From the NCBI GenBank assembly GCA_017937735.1, contig JAGBCZ010000005.1:1-12416 (forward strand): DNA of 12,416 nucleotides. The letters are read 5' to 3'. Under the pieces are notes generated by a model. It was not told where the DNA came from. It saw only the letters and a program-made list of their open reading frames with translations, and did not search any database. A program made the position numbers and the translations under genes. Every line of letters begins with the position of its first letter. Positions within the stretch are counted from its first letter, which is position 1. This document shows, piece after piece, positions 896 through 12,383 of the stretch. Source of the stretch: Alphaproteobacteria bacterium (GTDB taxonomy: Bacteria; Pseudomonadota; Alphaproteobacteria; Rs-D84).

Positions 896-1179
896 TTAGC
901 GGGCAAATTAACGATAATGGTATAGATAAACGGGGTGGCAATGGCGTAGTGTACATGGCGCTACATAAGATTCCCACCAACACCATTCACGATTAGCGAT
1001 AAAAATAAATCGGGAATCGTAGTGTACATGACGCTAAATGAATTCTTTTTACCCACCACGTGATTAGCGGGTAAATTAAATAGAACAGTTTAGATGTGGA
1101 ACGGTCTCGATAACGTAGTGTACAAAGGTTACATGAGTTGTCGGGACCGCCCACAGATGAATTGTTATATTTAATTTAC
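896..1179 (+). repeat. Three degenerate structured repeat units between the zeta-like gene and clpB
   Basis: This gene-free stretch carries three related units. Each has TTAGCG (896-901, 993-998, 1064-1069), then the identical core GTAGTGTACA (946-955, 1019-1028, 1115-1124), then a CCCAC block (about 973-978, 1052-1057, 1150-1154). Units 1 and 2 share 17 of 18 bases from the core rightwards (946-963 and 1019-1036). Units 1 and 3 share 15 of 16 bases at the left end (896-911 and 1064-1079). Unit 3 folds best: arms 1102-1114 and 1137-1149 pair over 13 positions with two G-U pairs on the plus strand. Outer arms 1071-1082 and 1168-1179 are perfect 12-base complements and overlap the clpB stop codon. 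The G-U pairs favour a plus-strand RNA. No coding frame is evident. Confidence 0.7.
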
Positions 1180-3228
1180 GGTTAGGGATTTACCGTGCAC
1201 ATCGATATACACAGTACTGCCTTCGTTTAATGTGCCAGACAATATCAGGTCGGCAATTTTATCTTCGACCGCAGATGTTATCAGACGCTTTAATGGACGT
1301 GCGCCAAAGACCGCATCATATCCATTGTCACCCAACCACTTTATCGCCTTGTCTGTGACGTTCAGTTCAATTCTGCGTTCGGCCAAGCGCTTTTCCAGAC
1401 CACGCAGTTGAATTTTAACAATGCCTGCCATCACATCTTTGCCCAACGGGTTAAAGAACACAATTTCATCAATTCGGTTGATAAATTCAGGGCGAAAATG
1501 CCTTTTGACCGCTTCCATATCTGGCAGGTTGCTGGTCATGATAATGATTGTGTTTGTAAAGTTCACAACATGACCCTGACCATCTGTCAAACGTCCATCA
1601 TCCAGTATTTGCAAGAACACATTGAACACATCTGGGTTTGCTTTTTCTATTTCATCAAACAGCAATACTTGATATGGTCTGCGTCTGACGCTTTCGGTCA
1701 GCACCCCACCCTGTTCATAACCGACATACCCCGGGGGACTGCCAATCAAGCGTGATACAGAATGTGGTTCCATATATTCACTCATATCAATACGTGTCAT
1801 GGCCGTATCATCATTAAACAGATATTCCGCCAATGCCTTGGCCACCTCGGTCTTACCAACACCGGTTGGCCCCAAGAACATAAAACTGCCCATTGGTCTG
1901 CGTGGATCAGACAGACCTGCACGACTGCGGCGAATTGCACGTGCAATTACCCCCAGCGCATGATCTTGCCCAACAACACGATTGCGCAATGCATCTTCGA
2001 TGTTTAACAGTTTTGATTGTTCTTCGGCATTTAATCTGTCGGCCGGGACACCGGTCCATTTGCTGACCACTGCTGCGATATGTTCTGGCAAAACTGTTTT
2101 GTATTCTTTTGTATCTGCGTTCATTTTTGCAATTTTTTCTTCCAGTTCTGGAATCTTGCCATATTGCAAGGCAGACGCTTTTTCATAGTCACCATTACGC
2201 ATTGCTGTGGCAACTTCGGCCTTGGCCACATCCAGTGCCGCCATCGCATCCGACAGACCACGCATTTTTTGTTGTTCTGCCTGCCACTGGGCGGTTAATT
2301 CTTTGGATTCGTCTTCGACCAATTTAATGATATTTTCCAAATCTGCCAGACGTTTTTTTGATTCATCGTCTTTTTCTTTTTTCAACGCCTGCTGTTCGAT
2401 TTTCAGTTGCATCAGATGTCTGTCAACTTCGTCCAGTTTATCTGGCTTGGATGCAATTTCGATACGCACACGTGCGGCGGCCTCGTCAATTAAATCGATG
2501 GCCTTGTCTGGCAAGAATCTATCTGTGATATACCGATTCGATAATTTTACCGCCGACACCAGCGCAGCATCTGCGATGCGCACACCATGATGTCCTTCGT
2601 ATTTTTCTTTCAGTCCACGCAAAATAGATATTGTATCGTCAACAGTTGGTTCATCAACATACACAGGTTGAAAACGGCGTGCCAGCGCCGGGTCTTTTTC
2701 AATATATTGACGATATTCATCCAACGTGGTCGCACCCAAACAGTGTAATTCACCACGTGCCAGCATTGGCTTTAACAAGTTTGCAGCATCCATGCTGCCT
2801 TCGCCCTTGCCTGCCCCGACAAGTGTATGCAATTCATCAATAAACAAAATTATTTTACCATCTGCATCTTTGACAGCCTTTAATATTGCCTTCAAGCGGC
2901 CTTCGAATTGACCACGAAAAGACGCACCGGCCATTAACGCCCCCATATCCAGACTTAACAACTGCTTTTTTAACAGATTTTCTGGCACATCGCCTGAAAT
3001 AATACGTGTTGCCAATCCTTCGACAATTGCAGTCTTTCCCACCCCTGGGTTACCAATCAGCACGGGGTTATTTTTGGTACGGCGACTTAACACCTGAATT
3101 GTGCGGCGGATTTCTTCGTCACGACCAATCACAGGGTCTAATTTCCCATCAGCCGCCAGTTTTGTAAAATCAGTTGTATATTTTTCAACTGCCTGCTGTG
3201 GTGTTTCTTGTAAATCATCCGGATTCAT
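1171..3228 (-). CDS. clpB: ClpB disaggregase lacking the N-terminal domain
   Basis: Hsp100 AAA+ ATPase that works with DnaK/DnaJ/GrpE in the cytosol to pull proteins out of aggregates. NBD1 has Walker A GNPGVGKT (59-66), Walker B ILFIDE (127-132) and the arginine-finger region ALARRF (about 181-186). A long coiled-coil M-domain follows (about 260-385), then NBD2 with Walker A GPTGVGKT (453-460), Walker B LLFDE (522-526) and pore loop GYVGYEQGG (500-508). The protein is 685 residues against about 860 for full-length ClpB. It starts just before NBD1, so the roughly 150-residue Clp_N domain is absent. The start is well supported: AAGGAG (3236-3241) lies 7 bases before the ATG. The NBD1 pore loop has Phe ([10 protein letters not shown]) where Tyr is usual, and about 25 residues are missing between TSNL (566-569) and the FRPEFINR block. 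Probably transcribed alone from the promoter at 3259-3290. Confidence 0.95.
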
Positions 3229-3370: not shown

Positions 3371-4804
3371 ATGACAAACTTTACCGAACAAGATTACACA
3401 CAAATCAAAAATCACCATCTGACGGCGGAACAAGTAAAACAACAAATTACAGATTTCAAAAACGGATTTCCATTTATCAATATTGTATCTGCGGCCATCG
3501 CAGGTGATGGAATACTGCAAATCAGCGATACAAAATACGCAGAATATTACGACAACGAAAAAGATAATTATAAAATAGAAAAATTTGTCCCAGCATCTGG
3601 CGCAGCCACACGCATGTTCAAAGACTTGTTTGAATTTTTAAACACGGGCATAATGAATCAGACAGTTCAAACCGTACTGGACAATCTGTCAAATTTTGCG
3701 TTTTACAATGATTTAAAACAAACGTTGCCCCCAGATGCAAATGCACACGACATTATAAAACACATCATTGATGATTCAGGACTTAATTACGGCAATCTGC
3801 CCAAAGGACTGTTAAAATTTCATAATGATAACAAATCTGGCATTACCGCTGTTGCAGAACACTTGGGCGAAGGCGCACAATATGCACAATCTAATCATAT
3901 TGTAAATATACATTTTACAGTATCCCCAGAACATATATCTGCATTTACAGAATTATTAAACACCATCGTTCCACAATACGAATCGGAAACAGGCATACAA
4001 TATAAAATAAATTTATCCACGCAAAAGTCTGAAACAGACACAATTGCTGTTAATCCAGACAACACACCATTTCGTAATTCTGATGGCACCCTGCTGTTTC
4101 GTCCGGCCGGTCATGGCGCACTGATTGAAAACCTGAACGATTTAGATGCAGACATCATATTCATCAAAAACATCGACAACGTTTGTACCAATGACACACG
4201 TGCGGACACAATACTATATAAAAAGATTCTTGCAGGTATTGCCATCCAAACCCAAAAACAAATATTTGAATATATACATGCAATTGATTCTGGCACGGCG
4301 AACATCACAGAAATCCAACAATATATATCTGACAATTTGGGCATACGAAAATTTGACACAGCACAAATACGCAACATATTAAACCGCCCATTACGTGTAT
4401 GTGGCATGATAAAGAACACCGGCGCCCCAGGTGGCGGACCATTTTGGACACAAAATACAGACGGCACAATCAGTCTGCAAATCGTAGAACCCGGACAAAT
4501 TGCCCCAGAATCAATATCTGTATTACATCAAGGTCAATATTTTAACCCTGTTGATTTGGTCTGTATGACACACGATTATACGGGCAAAAAATTTGATTTA
4601 ACCCAATATATTGATAAATCAACCGGATTTATTTCAACAAAATCTAAAAATGGACGTGATTTACGCGCAATGGAACGCCCAGGCCTGTGGAACGGCGCCA
4701 TGTCAAAATGGAACACAATATTTGTCGAAGTTCCAAACACAACATTCACCCCGGCCAAGGTTGTAACCGACCTGTTAAAAGACGGACACAAACACAACAA
4801 ATAA
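3371..4804 (+). CDS. DUF4301 family protein, nucleotidyltransferase-like
   Basis: A 477-residue protein with the hallmarks of DUF4301: the N-terminal KNGFPFINI stretch (30-38), the motif FVPASGAATRMFK (72-84), and near residues 243-270 the stretch RPAGHGALIENL followed by a LDADIIFIKNIDNV-type segment. The PASGAATRMFK and GHGAL motifs resemble nucleotide- and sugar-binding loops of sugar-phosphate nucleotidyltransferases, but no activity is established to my knowledge. Length fits the family (about 500). The ATG is preceded by AAGGGA about 8 bases upstream. The gene is divergent from clpB and has its own A/T-rich leader. I know DUF4301 mainly from Bacteroidota, so acquisition by transfer is possible; codon use looks like its neighbours, so any transfer is not recent. 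No signal peptide is seen; likely cytoplasmic. Confidence 0.85.
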   Translation: MTNFTEQDYTQIKNHHLTAEQVKQQITDFKNGFPFINIVSAAIAGDGILQISDTKYAEYYDNEKDNYKIEKFVPASGAATRMFKDLFEFLNTGIMNQTVQTVLDNLSNFAFYNDLKQTLPPDANAHDIIKHIIDDSGLNYGNLPKGLLKFHNDNKSGITAVAEHLGEGAQYAQSNHIVNIHFTVSPEHISAFTELLNTIVPQYESETGIQYKINLSTQKSETDTIAVNPDNTPFRNSDGTLLFRPAGHGALIENLNDLDADIIFIKNIDNVCTNDTRADTILYKKILAGIAIQTQKQIFEYIHAIDSGTANITEIQQYISDNLGIRKFDTAQIRNILNRPLRVCGMIKNTGAPGGGPFWTQNTDGTISLQIVEPGQIAPESISVLHQGQYFNPVDLVCMTHDYTGKKFDLTQYIDKSTGFISTKSKNGRDLRAMERPGLWNGAMSKWNTIFVEVPNTTFTPAKVVTDLLKDGHKHNK

Positions 4805-5276: not shown

Positions 5277-5361
5277 GGCCCCGTGGCGGAATTGGTAGAC
5301 GCGCTTGACTCAAAATCAAGTTCTGCGAGGAGTGTCGGTTCGAGTCCGACCAGGGCCACCA
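5277..5361 (+). tRNA. tRNA-Leu (anticodon CAA)
   Basis: A complete class II tRNA. The 5' acceptor strand is GGCCCCG (5277-5283), then TG, D-arm GCGGAATTGGTAGACGC, anticodon stem CTTGA/TCAAG with loop CTCAAAA (anticodon CAA, decoding UUG), a long variable arm, and T-arm GTCGG TTCGAGT CCGAC (5334-5350). The 3' strand CAGGGCC, discriminator A and encoded CCA end at 5361. The acceptor stem has a C6-A67 mismatch and is otherwise fully paired. It is followed directly by a strong intrinsic terminator (5367-5394). Its last seven bases are part of a 39-bp duplication (see 5355-5393 and 5499-5537). Confidence 0.95.
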
Positions 5362-5393
5362 GAATTAAAATCCCCTTTTGGGGATTTTTATTT
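5355..5393 (+). repeat. 39-bp direct repeat, copy 1 (tRNA-Leu 3' end plus terminator)
   Basis: Identical over 39 bases to 5499-5537, offset 144. It includes GCCACCA, the tRNA 3' end, and the whole terminator hairpin. Duplication of a tRNA 3' end is the usual footprint of integration or of recombination at a tRNA gene. Confidence 0.9.
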
Positions 5394-5394
5394 T
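5367..5394 (+). terminator. Intrinsic terminator after tRNA-Leu
   Basis: Perfect 9-bp stem AAAATCCCC (5367-5375) / GGGGATTTT (5380-5388) with a TTTT loop, followed by a T-rich tail (TTATTTT). It closes the rpmB-tRNA unit. Confidence 0.9.
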
Positions 5395-5498
5395 GGTCTG
5401 TGTCGGACGAAGAACCGACCGGTTCGAGCCGCAGCGATAGCGCAGGCGAAAGGGGCCCATAGAGCGAAAGCGAATATGGGAATTTACAATCCGTGCAC
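5395..5498 (+). other. Intervening 104-bp segment with hairpins, possible small RNA
   Basis: Non-coding GC-richer segment between the two terminator copies. It contains hairpin GAACC-GACC-GGTTC (5412-5425) and stem CCCATA/TATGGG (5456-5461/5475-5480) enclosing a GC-GAAA-GC tetraloop element (5464-5471). With the second terminator copy at its end it could be a short structured transcript or a separated piece of a tRNA cassette. No function can be assigned. Confidence 0.35.
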
Positions 5499-5537
5499 GC
5501 CACCAGAATTAAAATCCCCTTTTGGGGATTTTTATTT
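5499..5537 (+). repeat. 39-bp direct repeat, copy 2, shared terminator with trmH
   Basis: Second exact copy of 5355-5393. Its hairpin (arms 5511-5519 and 5524-5532) overlaps the trmH stop codon (5532-5534). Both flanks of the stem are A/T tracts, so it can terminate transcription from the left on the plus strand and probably also the minus-strand trmH transcript. Confidence 0.85.
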
Positions 5538-6131
5538 ACGACAAACAGATGGATCTTTTTTACGCCCACGTGTATGCGTGTTTTGATACGCACGTCTTTG
5601 CTTGGTTATTTCATACAGAACAATACCTGTGGATGTTGCCAAATTAAAACTTTCAATAACACCGTACATTTCAATACTGACACATGCGCTGCTGCGTTCA
5701 ACCGCCAGCGGACTGATTCCACGTGCCTCGTTACCGAACCAAACAGCCAGACGTTTTTGCGTAAAATCCCCATGTTCCAAGACAACATTTACCTTGCCCT
5801 TGACATGTGGTGACGTAACGATTGAAACATACTTGTTTTTTTCCAAATGATCCATACATTCCTGGGTTGATTTAAACTTTTTCACAAACGTCCACTTTAT
5901 TGCACCAACAGATGATTTTAACAAAGTACGTTTATTGCGCATATCTTCCCAGTTATCAGGAACATTGTTATTTGTATCAACAATATATAATTTTTCAACG
6001 CCCAGCGCATTTATATTTCTAATAACAGCACCAATATTTTTTGGATCACTGGGTTCTTCCAGAACTGCAATCAGATTTTTACATCTATCTTTTTTAACAG
6101 CATTTATTCTTGTCCGTAATCCTAAAACCAT
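5532..6131 (-). CDS. trmH: SPOUT RNA 2'-O-ribose methyltransferase, TrmH family
   Basis: Predicted AdoMet-dependent ribose methyltransferase of the SpoU/TrmH class; TrmH itself methylates G18 in tRNA D-loops. The three SPOUT motifs are present: the motif 1 region DPKNIGAVIRN, motif 2 LAVWFGNEARGIS, and motif 3 IEMYGVIESFNLATSTGIVLYE followed by KQRR. These give the Asn, Gly-Asn-Glu and Ser-x-Asn elements of the knotted cofactor site. I chose ATG 6131 because AAAAGGA sits 6 bases upstream; a longer reading from TTG 6170 has no such site. The protein has 199 residues, close to TrmH, with a short basic C-terminus. The gene converges on the tRNA-Leu region and shares its terminator. The exact RNA target (tRNA G18 or rRNA) cannot be told from sequence alone. 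Confidence 0.85.
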   Translation of the reverse strand: MVLGLRTRINAVKKDRCKNLIAVLEEPSDPKNIGAVIRNINALGVEKLYIVDTNNNVPDNWEDMRNKRTLLKSSVGAIKWTFVKKFKSTQECMDHLEKNKYVSIVTSPHVKGKVNVVLEHGDFTQKRLAVWFGNEARGISPLAVERSSACVSIEMYGVIESFNLATSTGIVLYEITKQRRAYQNTHTRGRKKDPSVCRK

Positions 6132-6279: not shown

Positions 6280-6888
6280 TTATTCATATTCGTGTTGTTC
6301 AAGCATAATTTTCACTTTTTCTTGGGATTTTTGTTGTTTAATTAAGTGTGCAACATCTACACGATGATATGCGCCGTTTATAATCGCCTGGCGCATTTCA
6401 GATTGGACGTGAGAATTGTCGCTGGCTTGTTTGTTCGGTTTGTTTTTTAACGGTTCGTTCAGAACGTATACTTCATACCCAAAATTTTCTATTTCTTCCA
6501 CAGTATTACATACCTGACGCTTGGATATCTTGATTGCTGTGGGGGAATAATATTCTGTACCTTTGTCGTGAATAAATTTTTCATCTGGCTTTTCGACAAC
6601 AGTGTACAGGTAAAATTCCGGCTTTATACTGTCGGATATCCGTTCAAAAAATATTTTTTTACCATATAAATTACATTGACCACGACCAGCCAAACATTTT
6701 ACCAGGGCAAAGAATTTCGCATCATTTGCATCTGATGTAACAAATGCACCGACAACACGTTTGTTTTGAACACTGTTAAATTGTTCTTTGGGTTCTAAAA
6801 AGTCACCATCTATTTTTGTCGCAGAACCATGATAAAACGTGCGAAACTCTATTTGTTGTACCCCTTTGGCAAAAGCATCTTTTTTCAT
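6280..6888 (-). CDS. Hypothetical YHGS-motif protein, paralogue of the upstream gene
   Basis: A 202-residue protein I do not recognise as a named family. It opens with FYHGS (18-22), then VVGAFVTSDANDAKFFAL (45-62), FFERIS (80-85), YLYTVV (93-98) and YEVYVLNE (138-145). The same motif series occurs in the gene just upstream (6904-7473), so the two are tandem paralogues. An early F/LYHGS, a following FxT...DAxxFA and a later conserved Glu recall ADP-ribosyltransferase folds such as PARP or KptA, but that is only a resemblance. The last 50 residues are charged, helical and absent from the paralogue. The start is supported by AAGGA 6 bases before the ATG. It is the last gene of the three-gene operon (gap 15). 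No signal peptide or membrane segment is seen. Confidence 0.75.
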   Translation of the reverse strand: MKKDAFAKGVQQIEFRTFYHGSATKIDGDFLEPKEQFNSVQNKRVVGAFVTSDANDAKFFALVKCLAGRGQCNLYGKKIFFERISDSIKPEFYLYTVVEKPDEKFIHDKGTEYYSPTAIKISKRQVCNTVEEIENFGYEVYVLNEPLKNKPNKQASDNSHVQSEMRQAIINGAYHRVDVAHLIKQQKSQEKVKIMLEQHEYE

Positions 6889-6903: not shown

Positions 6904-7473
6904 TTATCTGTCCATAGTATTGTTAAGAAATGCCGTTATTTGATTTGGTTCTTCCGGAAGATAGCGTTTGAATTTGCCTGTTCTGCTTATTTTTTGCCAT
7001 AAATCCAAACCTTCCTCTTCTGTCAGGCCATCAAAATCCACCGTGTCTTGCAGGACATAAACCTTAATATTACCATTTCTGATTTCTTGCATAACGTCAA
7101 TTTCATAGGTTTTTAAAATTGGAACATCGTTCAAGCAATAATAATCATCACCATCTGGAATAAAGCCGTCCGAAGAAACTTCATATACATACGCCTTGGA
7201 CTTTGTGATATTTGGGCTTATGCGTTCAACATACAGTGTGTCTATCCCGTTAGGCCATTTCCAACCATTGGAAATTATTCGCATAGCGGCATACAATCGT
7301 GCATGTCTAAAACTGGGGGTTGCGAACGTGGCGGTTATTGGTGTTCGCATACCGTCAGTGTGTCCAGGACGCATTCTGATGAACCCGTCTGTGATTTCAT
7401 GTTGTGACCCATGATAAAGTATTTTTGGTCTGTCTGTCATATCTATGTCTTTATCCTGTACCCAATGGCGCAT
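6904..7473 (-). CDS. Hypothetical YHGS-motif protein, possible ADP-ribosyltransferase-like fold
   Basis: A 189-residue soluble protein, paralogous to the next gene. Motifs: ILYHGSQHEI (18-27), ATFATPSFRHARLYAAM (48-64), YVERIS (81-86), YVYEV (95-99), DDYYCLNDVPI (109-119) and IKVYVLQD (136-143). The pattern of LYHGS near the N-terminus, a FAT...A..YA segment and a later acidic strand is like ART/KptA-type proteins, but I cannot name catalytic residues with confidence. It begins 15 bases after the ABC exporter stop, with AAGAAAA as a weak ribosome site; an in-frame ATG at 7440 is an alternative start. Its place directly behind an exporter suggests a joint role, for example handling or resisting an exported compound. 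That is inference only. Confidence 0.75.
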   Translation of the reverse strand: MRHWVQDKDIDMTDRPKILYHGSQHEITDGFIRMRPGHTDGMRTPITATFATPSFRHARLYAAMRIISNGWKWPNGIDTLYVERISPNITKSKAYVYEVSSDGFIPDGDDYYCLNDVPILKTYEIDVMQEIRNGNIKVYVLQDTVDFDGLTEEEGLDLWQKISRTGKFKRYLPEEPNQITAFLNNTMDR

Positions 7474-10345: not shown

Positions 10346-11371
10346 TCACACGCCCAGATGCTTTTTTATAAACTGCACCATTTTTTCATTGGAATAAACA
10401 CGTGCGATTGCCAGCAACGCATTTTGCAAGTTATATGTATTTGCCCACTTCATCAACCCATGTGTAGATGCCAAACTGGACACAGTAACAAACGAACGCC
10501 GATTATGCTGGGCGATTTTTTTTATTCTGCGTTTAATTCTGGCGACAGTTCTTTTACGCAACAACAGAAAATTTTTAAACAAGCGAAATCCGATAAAAAT
10601 CATACCCTGTGATTTTATAATTGTGGCCTTGGACAACTGCAAATCCAGTTCTGCAGATACAAATTCTCTAATTGGTTGTTTTATACTGTGCAAGAAATTC
10701 TTGTCATTATGGAAAATGCAAAAATCATCACTGTACCTGACATAGTTTTTACATTTCAGTTTGTGTTTAATAAATAAATCTAGTTCTGTCAGATACAGAT
10801 TTCCCATCCACTGACTGGTCAAATTTCCGATTGGCAGATTTTTTCCACCAGGCAACGAAAACACAATAATACGCAACAGTTTTAATATTTTCCTGTCATG
10901 AATTTTTCTGGCAATTATGTTCATCATAATTTCATGATTTATACTGGGATAGAATTTACGAATATCGCATTGCAGAACATACTTGTTTTTTCTGACGAAT
11001 AACATTGCCTGTTGTACAGCACTGTGAATCCCACGTCCAGGAATACATGCAAACGAATGTTTTACAAATCTGTTTTGCCAAATTGGTCCCAAAACGTTAA
11101 TCAGCGCATGATGCACAATATGATCTGGATACAGCGGCAATTCATAGATTTCCCGGCGTTTTGGTTCAAAAACTTCAAAAATATGATATTTAGATGTTTT
11201 AAATCTGCCAAAAATTAAATCTTGGCGCAATTTTTCCAGCAATTTATCTTTATTTGCCAAAAATACTTTTGTTTGTCTTTTTGACTTTTTACTTTTGACT
11301 GCTTTTTTGGCGGCCAATTCAAAATTTTCAACAGATATGAATTCATCCCATAAATTTTTATGTGTTTTCAT
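10346..11371 (-). CDS. Reverse transcriptase, DGR type
   Basis: A 341-residue reverse transcriptase with no visible maturase, nuclease or protease domain. Motif A is CDIRKFYPSI (135-144, catalytic Asp136). Motif 4 is LPIGNLTSQ (179-187), the IGNxTSQ form characteristic of diversity-generating retroelement RTs and unlike the QGxxxSP of retrons and group II introns. Motif 5 is YSDDF (213-217, Asp215-Asp216), and motif 7 is FIGFRL (259-264). The N-terminus MKTHKNLWDEF resembles other DGR-clade RTs, so I prefer ATG 11371 to the GTG at 11383. The C-terminus (SSLASTHGLMKWANTYNLQ) fits the thumb region. All catalytic residues are intact. The gene follows a frameshifted small gene by 19 bases on the same strand and lies downstream of a candidate template repeat. 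A non-DGR use, such as defence, remains possible. Confidence 0.9.
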   Translation of the reverse strand: MKTHKNLWDEFISVENFELAAKKAVKSKKSKRQTKVFLANKDKLLEKLRQDLIFGRFKTSKYHIFEVFEPKRREIYELPLYPDHIVHHALINVLGPIWQNRFVKHSFACIPGRGIHSAVQQAMLFVRKNKYVLQCDIRKFYPSINHEIMMNIIARKIHDRKILKLLRIIVFSLPGGKNLPIGNLTSQWMGNLYLTELDLFIKHKLKCKNYVRYSDDFCIFHNDKNFLHSIKQPIREFVSAELDLQLSKATIIKSQGMIFIGFRLFKNFLLLRKRTVARIKRRIKKIAQHNRRSFVTVSSLASTHGLMKWANTYNLQNALLAIARVYSNEKMVQFIKKHLGV

Positions 11372-11390
11372 CGCATTACCCACATAACAA

Positions 11391-11716
11391 CTATGACAAA
11401 GAATAGTACCGGTCTATTTTCACTATTGTTCCACGAAACGGCATCTTATCACGTGCAGATTGTATTTGATCAATCAGAACCACAGACCCAGTAAATGCAA
11501 CACAAACCTGATTATTTAAAACGAACTGAATTTGCAAACATTTTCCTTCTGGTTTTTTCTTGGAATTAGTAATTCTAAATCCACGACCAAGATTTCTTTA
11601 TTCAAAATTTCATCCAGTCGTTTTTTATCACCTGGCATTGGCAACTTGTCCCGTGCAAAATCGGCAAACGTATGACATTCACTAGAATTTATCTTGGCAA
11701 TATCCGACAAAATCAT
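11391..11716 (-). pseudogene. Small OB/ssb-like gene with an internal frameshift
   Basis: Reading from ATG 11716 (ribosome site AAAAGGA about 6 bases upstream) gives MILSDIAKINSSECHTFADF and on to DEILNKEI, then runs out of frame and stops near 11516. A different frame continues smoothly from about 11590 as LGRGFRITNSKKK, KCLQIQFVLNNQVCVAFTGS, VLIDQIQSARDKMPFRGTIV and KIDRYYSLS, ending at TAG 11391. Joined, they give 108 residues, and one inserted base near 11585-11597 restores the frame exactly. The second half looks like small beta-rich phage-type proteins that may bind single-stranded DNA; this is from memory and uncertain. It is not the helical Avd accessory protein of classical DGRs. Explanations are a disabled gene, a sequencing or assembly error, or, less likely, programmed frameshifting. 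Confidence 0.7.
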
Positions 11717-11717
11717 T

Positions 11718-11783
11718 TTACATCCTTTTATTGTAATGATTTAGATATCCTGGGTCTTCATCATGATACTGAACGATTACCAA
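11718..11783 (-). CDS. Possible 21-residue leader peptide before the ssb-like gene
   Basis: From TTG 11783, preceded by AGGAG with about 9 bases of spacing, the frame reads LVIVQYHDEDPGYLNHYNKR and a final Met, stopping at 11718-11720, one base before the ATG of the next gene. Such tight spacing suggests translational coupling. The sequence looks protein-like but is very short and could instead be the tail of a decayed gene, since a stop lies about 11 codons upstream. It overlaps a strong hairpin (11743-11794). Confidence 0.25.
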   Translation of the reverse strand: MVIVQYHDEDPGYLNHYNKRM

Positions 11784-11794
11784 CCCAGATATCT
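11743..11794 (-). promoter_or_regulatory. Inverted repeat upstream of the ssb-like/RT genes
   Basis: Arms 11743-11755 (AGATATCCTGGGT) and 11783-11794 (ACCCAGATATCT) pair over 12 positions with a single bulged base and enclose 27 bases. There is no T tract, so it is not an obvious terminator. It sits in the leader of the ssb-like/RT operon and could control translation or mark an RNA boundary. Confidence 0.55.
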
Positions 11795-11856
11795 CCTGCG
11801 TTTTTTGTTTGCGTTATTTGTTTATATAACAATAACACTGGTTGTATCACCCCACC

Positions 11857-11899
11857 TTGATGTGAAAGGCATCAAAACAGATATGTTTCATCATATCTG
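11857..11899 (-). terminator. Two adjacent hairpins after the template-repeat region
   Basis: TTGATG/CATCAA (11857-11862/11870-11875) and CAGATATG/CATATCTG (11878-11885/11892-11899, perfect 8 bp, loop of 6). On the minus strand the second stem is followed by TTTT, giving a weak intrinsic-terminator look. They may end or fold the RNA running from the template-repeat region toward the RT. A further 8-bp inverted repeat AAACTTTT/AAAAGTTT lies at 11937-11944/11953-11960. Confidence 0.4.
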
Positions 11900-11969
11900 A
11901 AAAGCGTTTTATACACTTTGTCCCTGCAGGCTGGCAAAACTTTTTCCTTGTGAAAAGTTTATTTCCTTT

Positions 11970-12089
11970 ACCCAAGGGGCCGACCGACCCGAACAACCCG
12001 GACCGCAGAGCGGCGTTATTCTGGGCGTTGTTACCGCAGTTGTTAGCACAATTGGACGCACAATTCGAAGCGGAATTCGAGTTGTTGAA
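11970..12089 (-). ncRNA. Candidate DGR template repeat (TR) with adenine-free 3' segment
   Basis: On the minus (RT-sense) strand, 12089-12012 forms 26 codons in one frame, of which 11 are AAC or AAT. All but one of the adenines in the stretch are in those Asn codons; the exception is one CAG. DGR template repeats have just this design, because adenines are the mutagenised bases and AAY codons diversify without creating stops. It is followed by 46 bases (12015-11970) with no adenine, resembling the GC-rich initiation-of-mutagenic-homing segment at a TR 3' end. The element is on the RT strand, upstream of the ssb-like gene and RT. Exact TR boundaries cannot be set without the matching variable repeat, and none is present in the window. 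The alternative is a coincidental low-complexity coding segment. Confidence 0.6.
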
Positions 12090-12198
12090 CACCCAACGCG
12101 AATACGCAGCACACCAACAATACGTACAACACGGCAATACAACCAACACCGTTTTGAAACGATGCAAAAAAATATTCCTTAATATTTTCCTGCATCAT
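12043..12198 (-). CDS. Possible 51-residue small membrane protein overlapping the TR candidate
   Basis: From ATG 12198 (or ATG 12195) the minus strand reads MMQENIKEYFFASFQNGVG, then the hydrophobic run CIAVLYVLLVCCVFALGV (about residues 20-37), then a Cys-containing tail to TAA at 12043. The run is long enough for one membrane helix. The ribosome site is weak (AAAG), the start lies inside a 16-bp hairpin (12161-12196), and the 3' end overlaps the candidate template repeat in a different frame. It could be a genuine small protein or a chance ORF. Confidence 0.25.
   Translation of the reverse strand: MMQENIKEYFFASFQNGVGCIAVLYVLLVCCVFALGVQQLEFRFELCVQLC
12161..12196 (-). other. Perfect 16-bp hairpin on the RT strand
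   Basis: Minus-strand arms GATGCAGGAAAATATT and AATATTTTTTTGCATC pair over all 16 positions, with two G-U pairs and an AAGG loop. On the plus strand the same two positions would be A-C mismatches, so the fold favours a minus-strand RNA, the same sense as the RT. It lies about 70 bases upstream of the template-repeat candidate. Confidence 0.65.
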
Positions 12199-12224
12199 TC
12201 TTTAAAAACATCCAGAGAATTGAT

Positions 12225-12383
12225 GGTCGGGCAGTTAGAAAAATCAATATCACAAATGACCCCGTTTGTCTTTAGTCAAGACCTATTGTATAACAAACGG
12301 CTCCCCGACCAGTTAAACAGTTGGGGTACGCAAACAAATGTGGCAAAATACCACAAACACGGGCAATGATGTGACAACACATC
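12225..12383 (-). other. Nested and serial inverted repeats upstream of the TR candidate
   Basis: GGTCGGG/CCCGACC (12225-12231/12304-12310) encloses CCGTTTGT/ACAAACGG (12262-12269/12293-12300), a nested pair. Further right are TGTGG/CCACA (12339-12343/12351-12355) and GATGTG/CACATC (12368-12373/12378-12383). No convincing coding frame covers this stretch. Two minus-strand frames are open from the right edge, to 12276 and 12313, and either could be the tail of an upstream gene. The density of complementary arms suggests a folded RNA or a recombination site. Confidence 0.5.

Follow-up and report, generated by a model that had tools for sequence, protein, structure and literature searches.

The window analysed here is a 12,416-nucleotide stretch from the start of contig JAGBCZ010000005.1, assigned to an alphaproteobacterium. 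Towards its end, positions 10346-12107 of the minus strand hold a genuine diversity-generating retroelement (DGR), confirmed by a DGR-type reverse transcriptase (RT), a template repeat (TR) and a gene other than Avd beside the RT. Along the minus strand, starting at 12107 and ending at 10346, the order is TR, a 262-nt spacer, a small gene of an OB-fold-like family, and the RT:

11979..12107, minus strand: template repeat (adenine codon positions; variation in the target family)
11970..12015, minus strand: 46-nt A-free run at the 3' end of the TR, the longest of its kind and, by position only, a candidate IMH*
11717..11978, minus strand: structured spacer separating the TR from the OB gene; its RNA is a candidate for recruiting the RT and for priming (folding energy compared with shuffles)
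11391..11716, minus strand: OB-fold-like (ssb-like) accessory gene, frameshifted near codon 46 (homologue search, family HMM, model of relatives)
10346..11371, minus strand: DGR-type RT of 341 aa, in an ORF open from a GTG at 11383 (phrog_1423, LPIGNLTSQ, YSDD, 8ub7)

These components had been proposed by a sequence-only reading of the same DNA, and each was recovered. The RT frame is unbroken and carries LPIGNLTSQ and YSDD as claimed, the TR lies within the stretch 11970-12140 that had been put forward for it, no Avd HMM match occurs near the RT (the window ends 1,033 nt past the first base of its ORF), and a small gene, with a one-base frameshift in this copy, stands in the place of Avd. The host replicon looks like an alphaproteobacterial chromosome. 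Neighbouring genes in the window encode a HAD hydrolase, a SpoU methylase, a DUF4301 protein, an ABC transporter, ClpB and tRNA-Leu, and no phage genes were noticed among the window ORFs searched, a search that took in a minority of the small ORFs. Most homologues with a name, for the RT as for the small gene, come from Alphaproteobacteria MAGs, and one is from Candidatus Enterousia merdequi.

Several features of the neighbourhood were recorded in passing. The match of the ClpB-like ORF (1171-3228, minus strand) begins at position 149 of the ClpB model, so that its N-terminal domain is missing or lies elsewhere. The DUF4301 protein (3371-4804, plus strand) is full length (E 1.2e-190), DUF4301 being a domain of unknown function. 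The adjacent ORFs 6280-6888 and 6904-7473 (minus strand) each have an N-terminal YHGS motif, have no Pfam or NCBIfam match, and look like paralogues by eye. At 5305-5586 the peptide-like repeat PELKSPFGDF occurs twice within one ORF, perhaps as an intergenic DNA repeat.

The RT ORF (10346-11383, minus strand) is uninterrupted and probably starts at the ATG at 11371. It matched phrog_1423 at E 2.1e-98, the DRT models far more weakly (best UG17, 3.8e-23), and the NCBIfam group II model at 108 bits, below its cut-off of 300. In a profile search of solved structures the nearest chain was 8ub7 (E 6.2e-63, 328 residues), which we take to be the BPP-1 RT, an enzyme of 328 aa; retron-type and group II RTs followed at about 1e-28 (best 1.1e-28). 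The placement in a phylogeny that had been suggested for this enzyme was made on a tree of 59 rows, thinned by identity, which includes group II introns and leaves out retron and UG/DRT RTs. In this tree the window RT groups with six alphaproteobacterial RTs at 100% and clusters with RTs that have adenine-specific VR-TR pairs, and three group II RTs form a separate branch (100% SH-aLRT). Judged by its sequence, the RT is of the DGR kind and does not fall among the group II RTs.

The TR (12107-11979, minus strand) spans 129 nt with 24 A, of which 11, 13 and 0 fall on codon positions 1, 2 and 3; upstream of it the window continues for 309 nt. No A-free run on either strand is longer than the one that takes in the 3' part of the TR (46 nt, 12015-11970). 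By itself this run is within chance, since the longest A-free run averaged 24.3 nt and reached at most 49 when the minus strand was shuffled 500 times by mononucleotide; the codon pattern together with the matching protein family is beyond chance. Within the window no VR was found: the pair finder returned nothing, and the best TR-like place in a search for adenine-mismatched near-copies was mismatched at 60 of 105 non-A positions. A DNA pattern of the TR 3' end had 0 matches in viral contigs. Upstream of the TR, a hairpin-rich stretch (12217-12310, minus strand) matches Rfam sRNA-Xcc1 over its whole length with 34.3 bits, short of the gathering score (53).

When the TR reading frame was used as a protein query, 108 proteins were retrieved. 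The variation count took in the 64 whose 40-residue tail aligned gap-free and was preceded by over 60 N-terminal residues; the remaining 44 were TR-like all-Asn peptide frames, tails with a residue inserted or missing, other ends, or proteins with short N-terminal parts. In relatives, the target family consists of Cys-rich proteins of 133-189 aa with signal-like N-termini and a C-terminal VR. Over the 64 tails, 72% of the cells in the 11 AAY columns differ from the TR, and 4.1% of those in the 27 A-free columns do. The CAG column differs in 58% (Q 27, R 23, H 7, P 2, others 5; n=64), and the seven H indicate that the TRs of some relatives differ from that of the window. K, E, Q, M and W account for 5 of 704 residues at the AAY columns, compared with 16.2% of the 6345 taken from the middle of these proteins, as expected from the rewriting of two As, because NNY codons cannot encode them. 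The target proteins belong to other strains and species with their own TRs, so that the test is one at the level of the family and involves no TR-VR pair of a single genome. At that level the aligned proteins vary in a codon-restricted way, at the A-containing codons of the TR, in keeping with the earlier proposal that a target protein is diversified. Given this variation and the place of the RT in the tree, the outcome that had been named as refuting the earlier reading did not come about.

Searches of Pfam, NCBIfam and the sequences of solved structures gave the target no name. The Pfam scans and the structural model used the 64 members of alignment A4, a selection that differs from, and overlaps with, the 64 tails counted above. 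PAN_2 matched 9 of these 64 members (best E 7.5e-4; first member 19.4 bits, cut-off 21.1) and was not relied on. The model, examined with a C-type lectin fold in view, places the VR on a strand and a C-terminal helix, and its comparison with the PDB yielded no convincing match. Annotated VR regions are described as systematically C-type lectin by Roux et al. 2021 (PMC8144416).

The small gene between the spacer and the RT (11716-11391, minus strand) shows as two overlapping frames, owing to a one-base frameshift near codon 46, and both frames match the family HMM. Among the homologues found with the downstream frame, 47 of 55 are 108 aa long; the closest is 98% identical over 91% of the searched piece, and its gene is intact. 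Modelling of the relatives suggested an OB-like fold, and the solved structures nearest to the model include SSBs. No Pfam SSB match was obtained for the window's pieces or for 28 relatives, and the family has no name in Pfam or NCBIfam and no solved-structure match by sequence. What had been called an ssb-like gene is, according to the model, a conserved 108-aa OB-fold-like family, broken in the window copy, whose members may bind nucleic acid. The median pI is 8.6 for this family vs 9.5 for Avd, both being basic.

The association of this gene with DGR-type RTs was followed in four sets of loci: A, the closest RTs (best 80 of 161 viral loci); B, BPP-1-like RTs (67 loci); C, RTs like that of locus L090 (best 80 of 309 loci); and D, RTs like that of Prosthecochloris (5 loci). 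The OB gene stands beside the RT in 74 of the 80 loci of set A and 79 of the 80 of set C, with Avd in none of either; set B has Avd in 63 of 67 and OB in none, and set D has Avd in one of five and OB in none. L090, a seed of the HMM, is also a member of set C, and the first HMM contained hankyphage; the search was rechecked without viral seeds and without hankyphage, and an HMM from 28 alphaproteobacterial OB proteins alone gave 74 for A, 0 for B and 79 for C. All 160 OB matches (159 loci, the broken gene of the window counting twice) in 248 sequences totalling 2.57 Mb lie at most 1.5 kb from an RT, a nearness that is partly by design, since the loci of the sets were fetched by their RTs. In a blind test the OB profile matched 4 of 395 genomes, and in all four places an RT frame adjoins the OB gene, with no Avd in about 1.5 kb on each side. 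The phylum draw behind this test and a second phylum draw are not independent, as G147 and G247 are common to both. In another draw, of 288 genomes, the A2 profile found nothing, a result that, having no known positive, shows nothing.

Among alphaproteobacterial matches listed, six RT/OB pairs noted by eye have longest contigs of equal size (P0116/P0148, P0106/P0168, P0094/P0171, P0085/P0152, P0048/P0151 and P0008/P0153), and three pairs of RT and target or TR frame, likewise by eye among the matches listed, do so too (P0002/P0191, P0013/P0208 and P0045/P0213). On the 59-RT tree the OB and Avd labels require one change, with a joining branch at 86% SH-aLRT and ANMV-1 unresolved; the OB label needs eight changes if unlabelled and alphaproteobacterial RT rows count as not OB. 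Avd is present in three cellular loci with a full RT, which came from a contig scan returning four distant loci, and in two plasmids, whose Avds are HMM seeds. Five further named records gave an Avd match in L256, L258 and L259, and neither OB nor Avd in L255 and L257. In the loci examined, the OB gene is linked to the RT and excludes Avd. Two oddities were seen among these records: the Ideonella plasmid DGR (L258:1882-3906) has an annotated Avd on both sides of the RT, followed by a second RT gene, and the RT gene of the crAss-like phage cr53_1 (L093:4001-5020) has eight stops under table 11, perhaps through a recoded stop codon.

The viral loci also supply the VR-TR pairs. The pair finder counts pairs in which at least 75% of the mismatches fall at one base, any base being allowed, and in set A (best 80 of 161) it found a pair in 67 of 80 loci; among the 63 whose upstream sequence reaches 1.5 kb or more, 60 have one. 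With the mutated base chosen freely, it was A in 193 of the 194 pairs of three sets and G in one. The gene orders of the 194 pair loci were VR-TR-RT-OB in 128, VR-OB-TR-RT in 7, VR-Avd-TR-RT in 53 and others in 6; of the 54 pairs in set B, 53 have Avd ahead of the TR. The layout of the window had been called unusual. This holds for its TR-OB-RT order, which is absent among the 194 viral loci with a VR-TR pair, but not for its non-Avd accessory gene, which recurs in two viral DGR sets. In one viral locus (L090:66-1421), three paralogous ORFs stand in tandem upstream of the RT, and an adenine-specific repeat pair falls within their region; this single DGR perhaps has several targets.

The spacer of the window (11717-11978, minus strand) has an MFE of -69.9 kcal/mol (z -4.46), and 0 of 200 shuffles were as low; with a second script z was -5.76, the median for 12 control stretches taken from the window being -0.43. 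The BPP-1 spacer, located 3' of the TR, is described as folding, recruiting the RT-Avd complex and priming the cDNA (PMC12875486). For 25 sampled loci of each set, median z was -1.95 vs -0.02 in controls for set A, -0.65 vs -0.28 for set B and -0.48 vs -0.42 for set C. Spacer RNA structure is not a general mark of DGRs: set A tends to it, and B and C hardly differ from controls.

Several known systems invite comparison. The BPP-1 DGR (brt, avd, TR, mtd) resembles the window in its RT superfamily, in a TR that precedes the RT, in TR adenines to be rewritten and in a C-terminal VR, which for the window is seen in the family of its relatives. It differs in that Avd lies upstream of the TR and no OB gene is present, whereas the window has OB between TR and RT and no Avd. 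The DGRs of the archaeal virus ANMV-1 and the virus vir525 share the OB gene, and both have an adenine-specific VR-TR pair, but their OB gene follows the RT, while that of the window precedes it. The published map of ANMV-1 names an Avd (PMC4372165); our Avd HMM had no match in this DGR. The hankyphage p00 DGR of Bacteroides, reported to be active in culture and marked by its authors with a separate Avd (PMC12135933), is like the window in giving no Avd HMM match and unlike it in carrying a weak OB match inside the C-terminus of the RT gene itself (tblastn from L090, E 2e-4; HMM built without hankyphage, E 4.2e-5). The alphaproteobacterial OB HMM gave no match in that C-terminus. Taken as sequence matches, these results suggest that an OB domain may be fused to the hankyphage RT. 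For the Avd-less lineage 3 (Wu et al. 2018, via PMC7290462), of which crAssphage LMMB is an example, the order target-TR-RT without avd is described. Unlike the window, crAssphage LMMB has no OB match by HMM, and Avd is likewise absent by HMM; the tail of its RT looks OB-like by eye, unsupported by any score.

Wu et al. in 2018 reportedly listed accessory genes beyond Avd. Such accessories are given elsewhere as HRDC, MSL and one protein of suggested DGR association that has no Pfam or CDD name (PMC10053308). No OB-fold DGR partner was named in the literature covered, mostly the main texts of freely available papers.

We consider it probable that the window holds a cellular DGR, belonging to an alphaproteobacterium that is uncultured and probably lives in the gut, and that the partner of the RT is an OB-fold-like protein and not Avd. 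The RT would copy an RNA of the TR and the structured spacer into cDNA, placing random bases opposite template adenines, and this cDNA would replace the C-terminal VR of one or more genes outside the window, encoding small, Cys-rich and presumably exported proteins. The OB-fold-like protein would most likely bind the spacer RNA or the single-stranded cDNA and may allow cDNA synthesis, as Avd does in BPP-1; it may take the role of Avd in one branch of DGRs. The DGR of the window may itself be active, though this copy, with its frameshifted OB gene, may be crippled or misassembled.

That the RT is a relative of retron, DRT or group II enzymes and the TR a chance Asn-rich stretch is extremely improbable. 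Models of generic RTs, of DRTs and of group II RTs do match, but far more weakly than phrog_1423, and the NCBIfam matches remain under their own cut-offs; the three group II RTs branch apart in a tree built without retron and DRT RTs, and variation of the target family at the A-containing codons of the TR already contradicts a chance origin. We ruled this reading out on the strength of the phrog_1423 match, the 8ub7 match, the tree and the target-family variation. A decaying DGR is a rather improbable account, in which the element has lost its accessory gene while its RT and TR can still be recognised, nothing is diversified here and the relatives vary through intact copies of their own. The frameshift in the OB gene and the lack of a VR within the window speak for decay; yet the RT is uninterrupted and the TR has kept its codon pattern, a single-base slip can equally be an assembly error, and the OB genes of relatives are intact at 98% identity.

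It is unlikely, while deserving serious weight, that the OB-fold-like protein has another job in the DGR, such as guarding the cDNA or integrating it in the target, and that cDNA synthesis by the RTs of this branch requires no cofactor of the Avd kind. The modelled OB-like fold, whose nearest solved structures include SSBs, would suit such a job, as would the location of the OB gene, mostly after the RT (128 of 194 pair loci), when Avd lies before the TR (53 of 54 set B pairs). Against it, OB and Avd exclude each other in all loci of sets A to D, which suggests a shared role, and the weak match in the C-terminal end of the hankyphage RT hints at a protein in close contact with the enzyme.

According to one paper retrohoming cannot do without Avd (PMC10053308), and another puts the share of DGRs that have no Avd homologue at about a quarter (PMC7290462). 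If the preferred reading, an OB-fold protein in the place of Avd, is right, the cofactor of Avd-less RTs becomes directly testable, and setting side by side two cofactors that are unrelated yet serve one family of RTs would reveal what such a cofactor must do. The hankyphage OB match points to a system whose activity has already been measured in the laboratory (PMC12135933). We somewhat favour, by a small step, a wider view in which DGRs are of two biochemical kinds: those with helical-Avd RTs, and those with OB-fold-partner RTs, found in phages, archaeal viruses and Alphaproteobacteria, the OB sometimes being fused, with alphaproteobacterial targets that show hypervariable residues on one face of an alpha-helix in an exported Cys-rich protein of small size, which would be a display scaffold distinct from the C-type lectin fold. 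If this is true, variable residues displayed on a helix would widen the known target scaffolds of DGRs beyond the C-type lectin.
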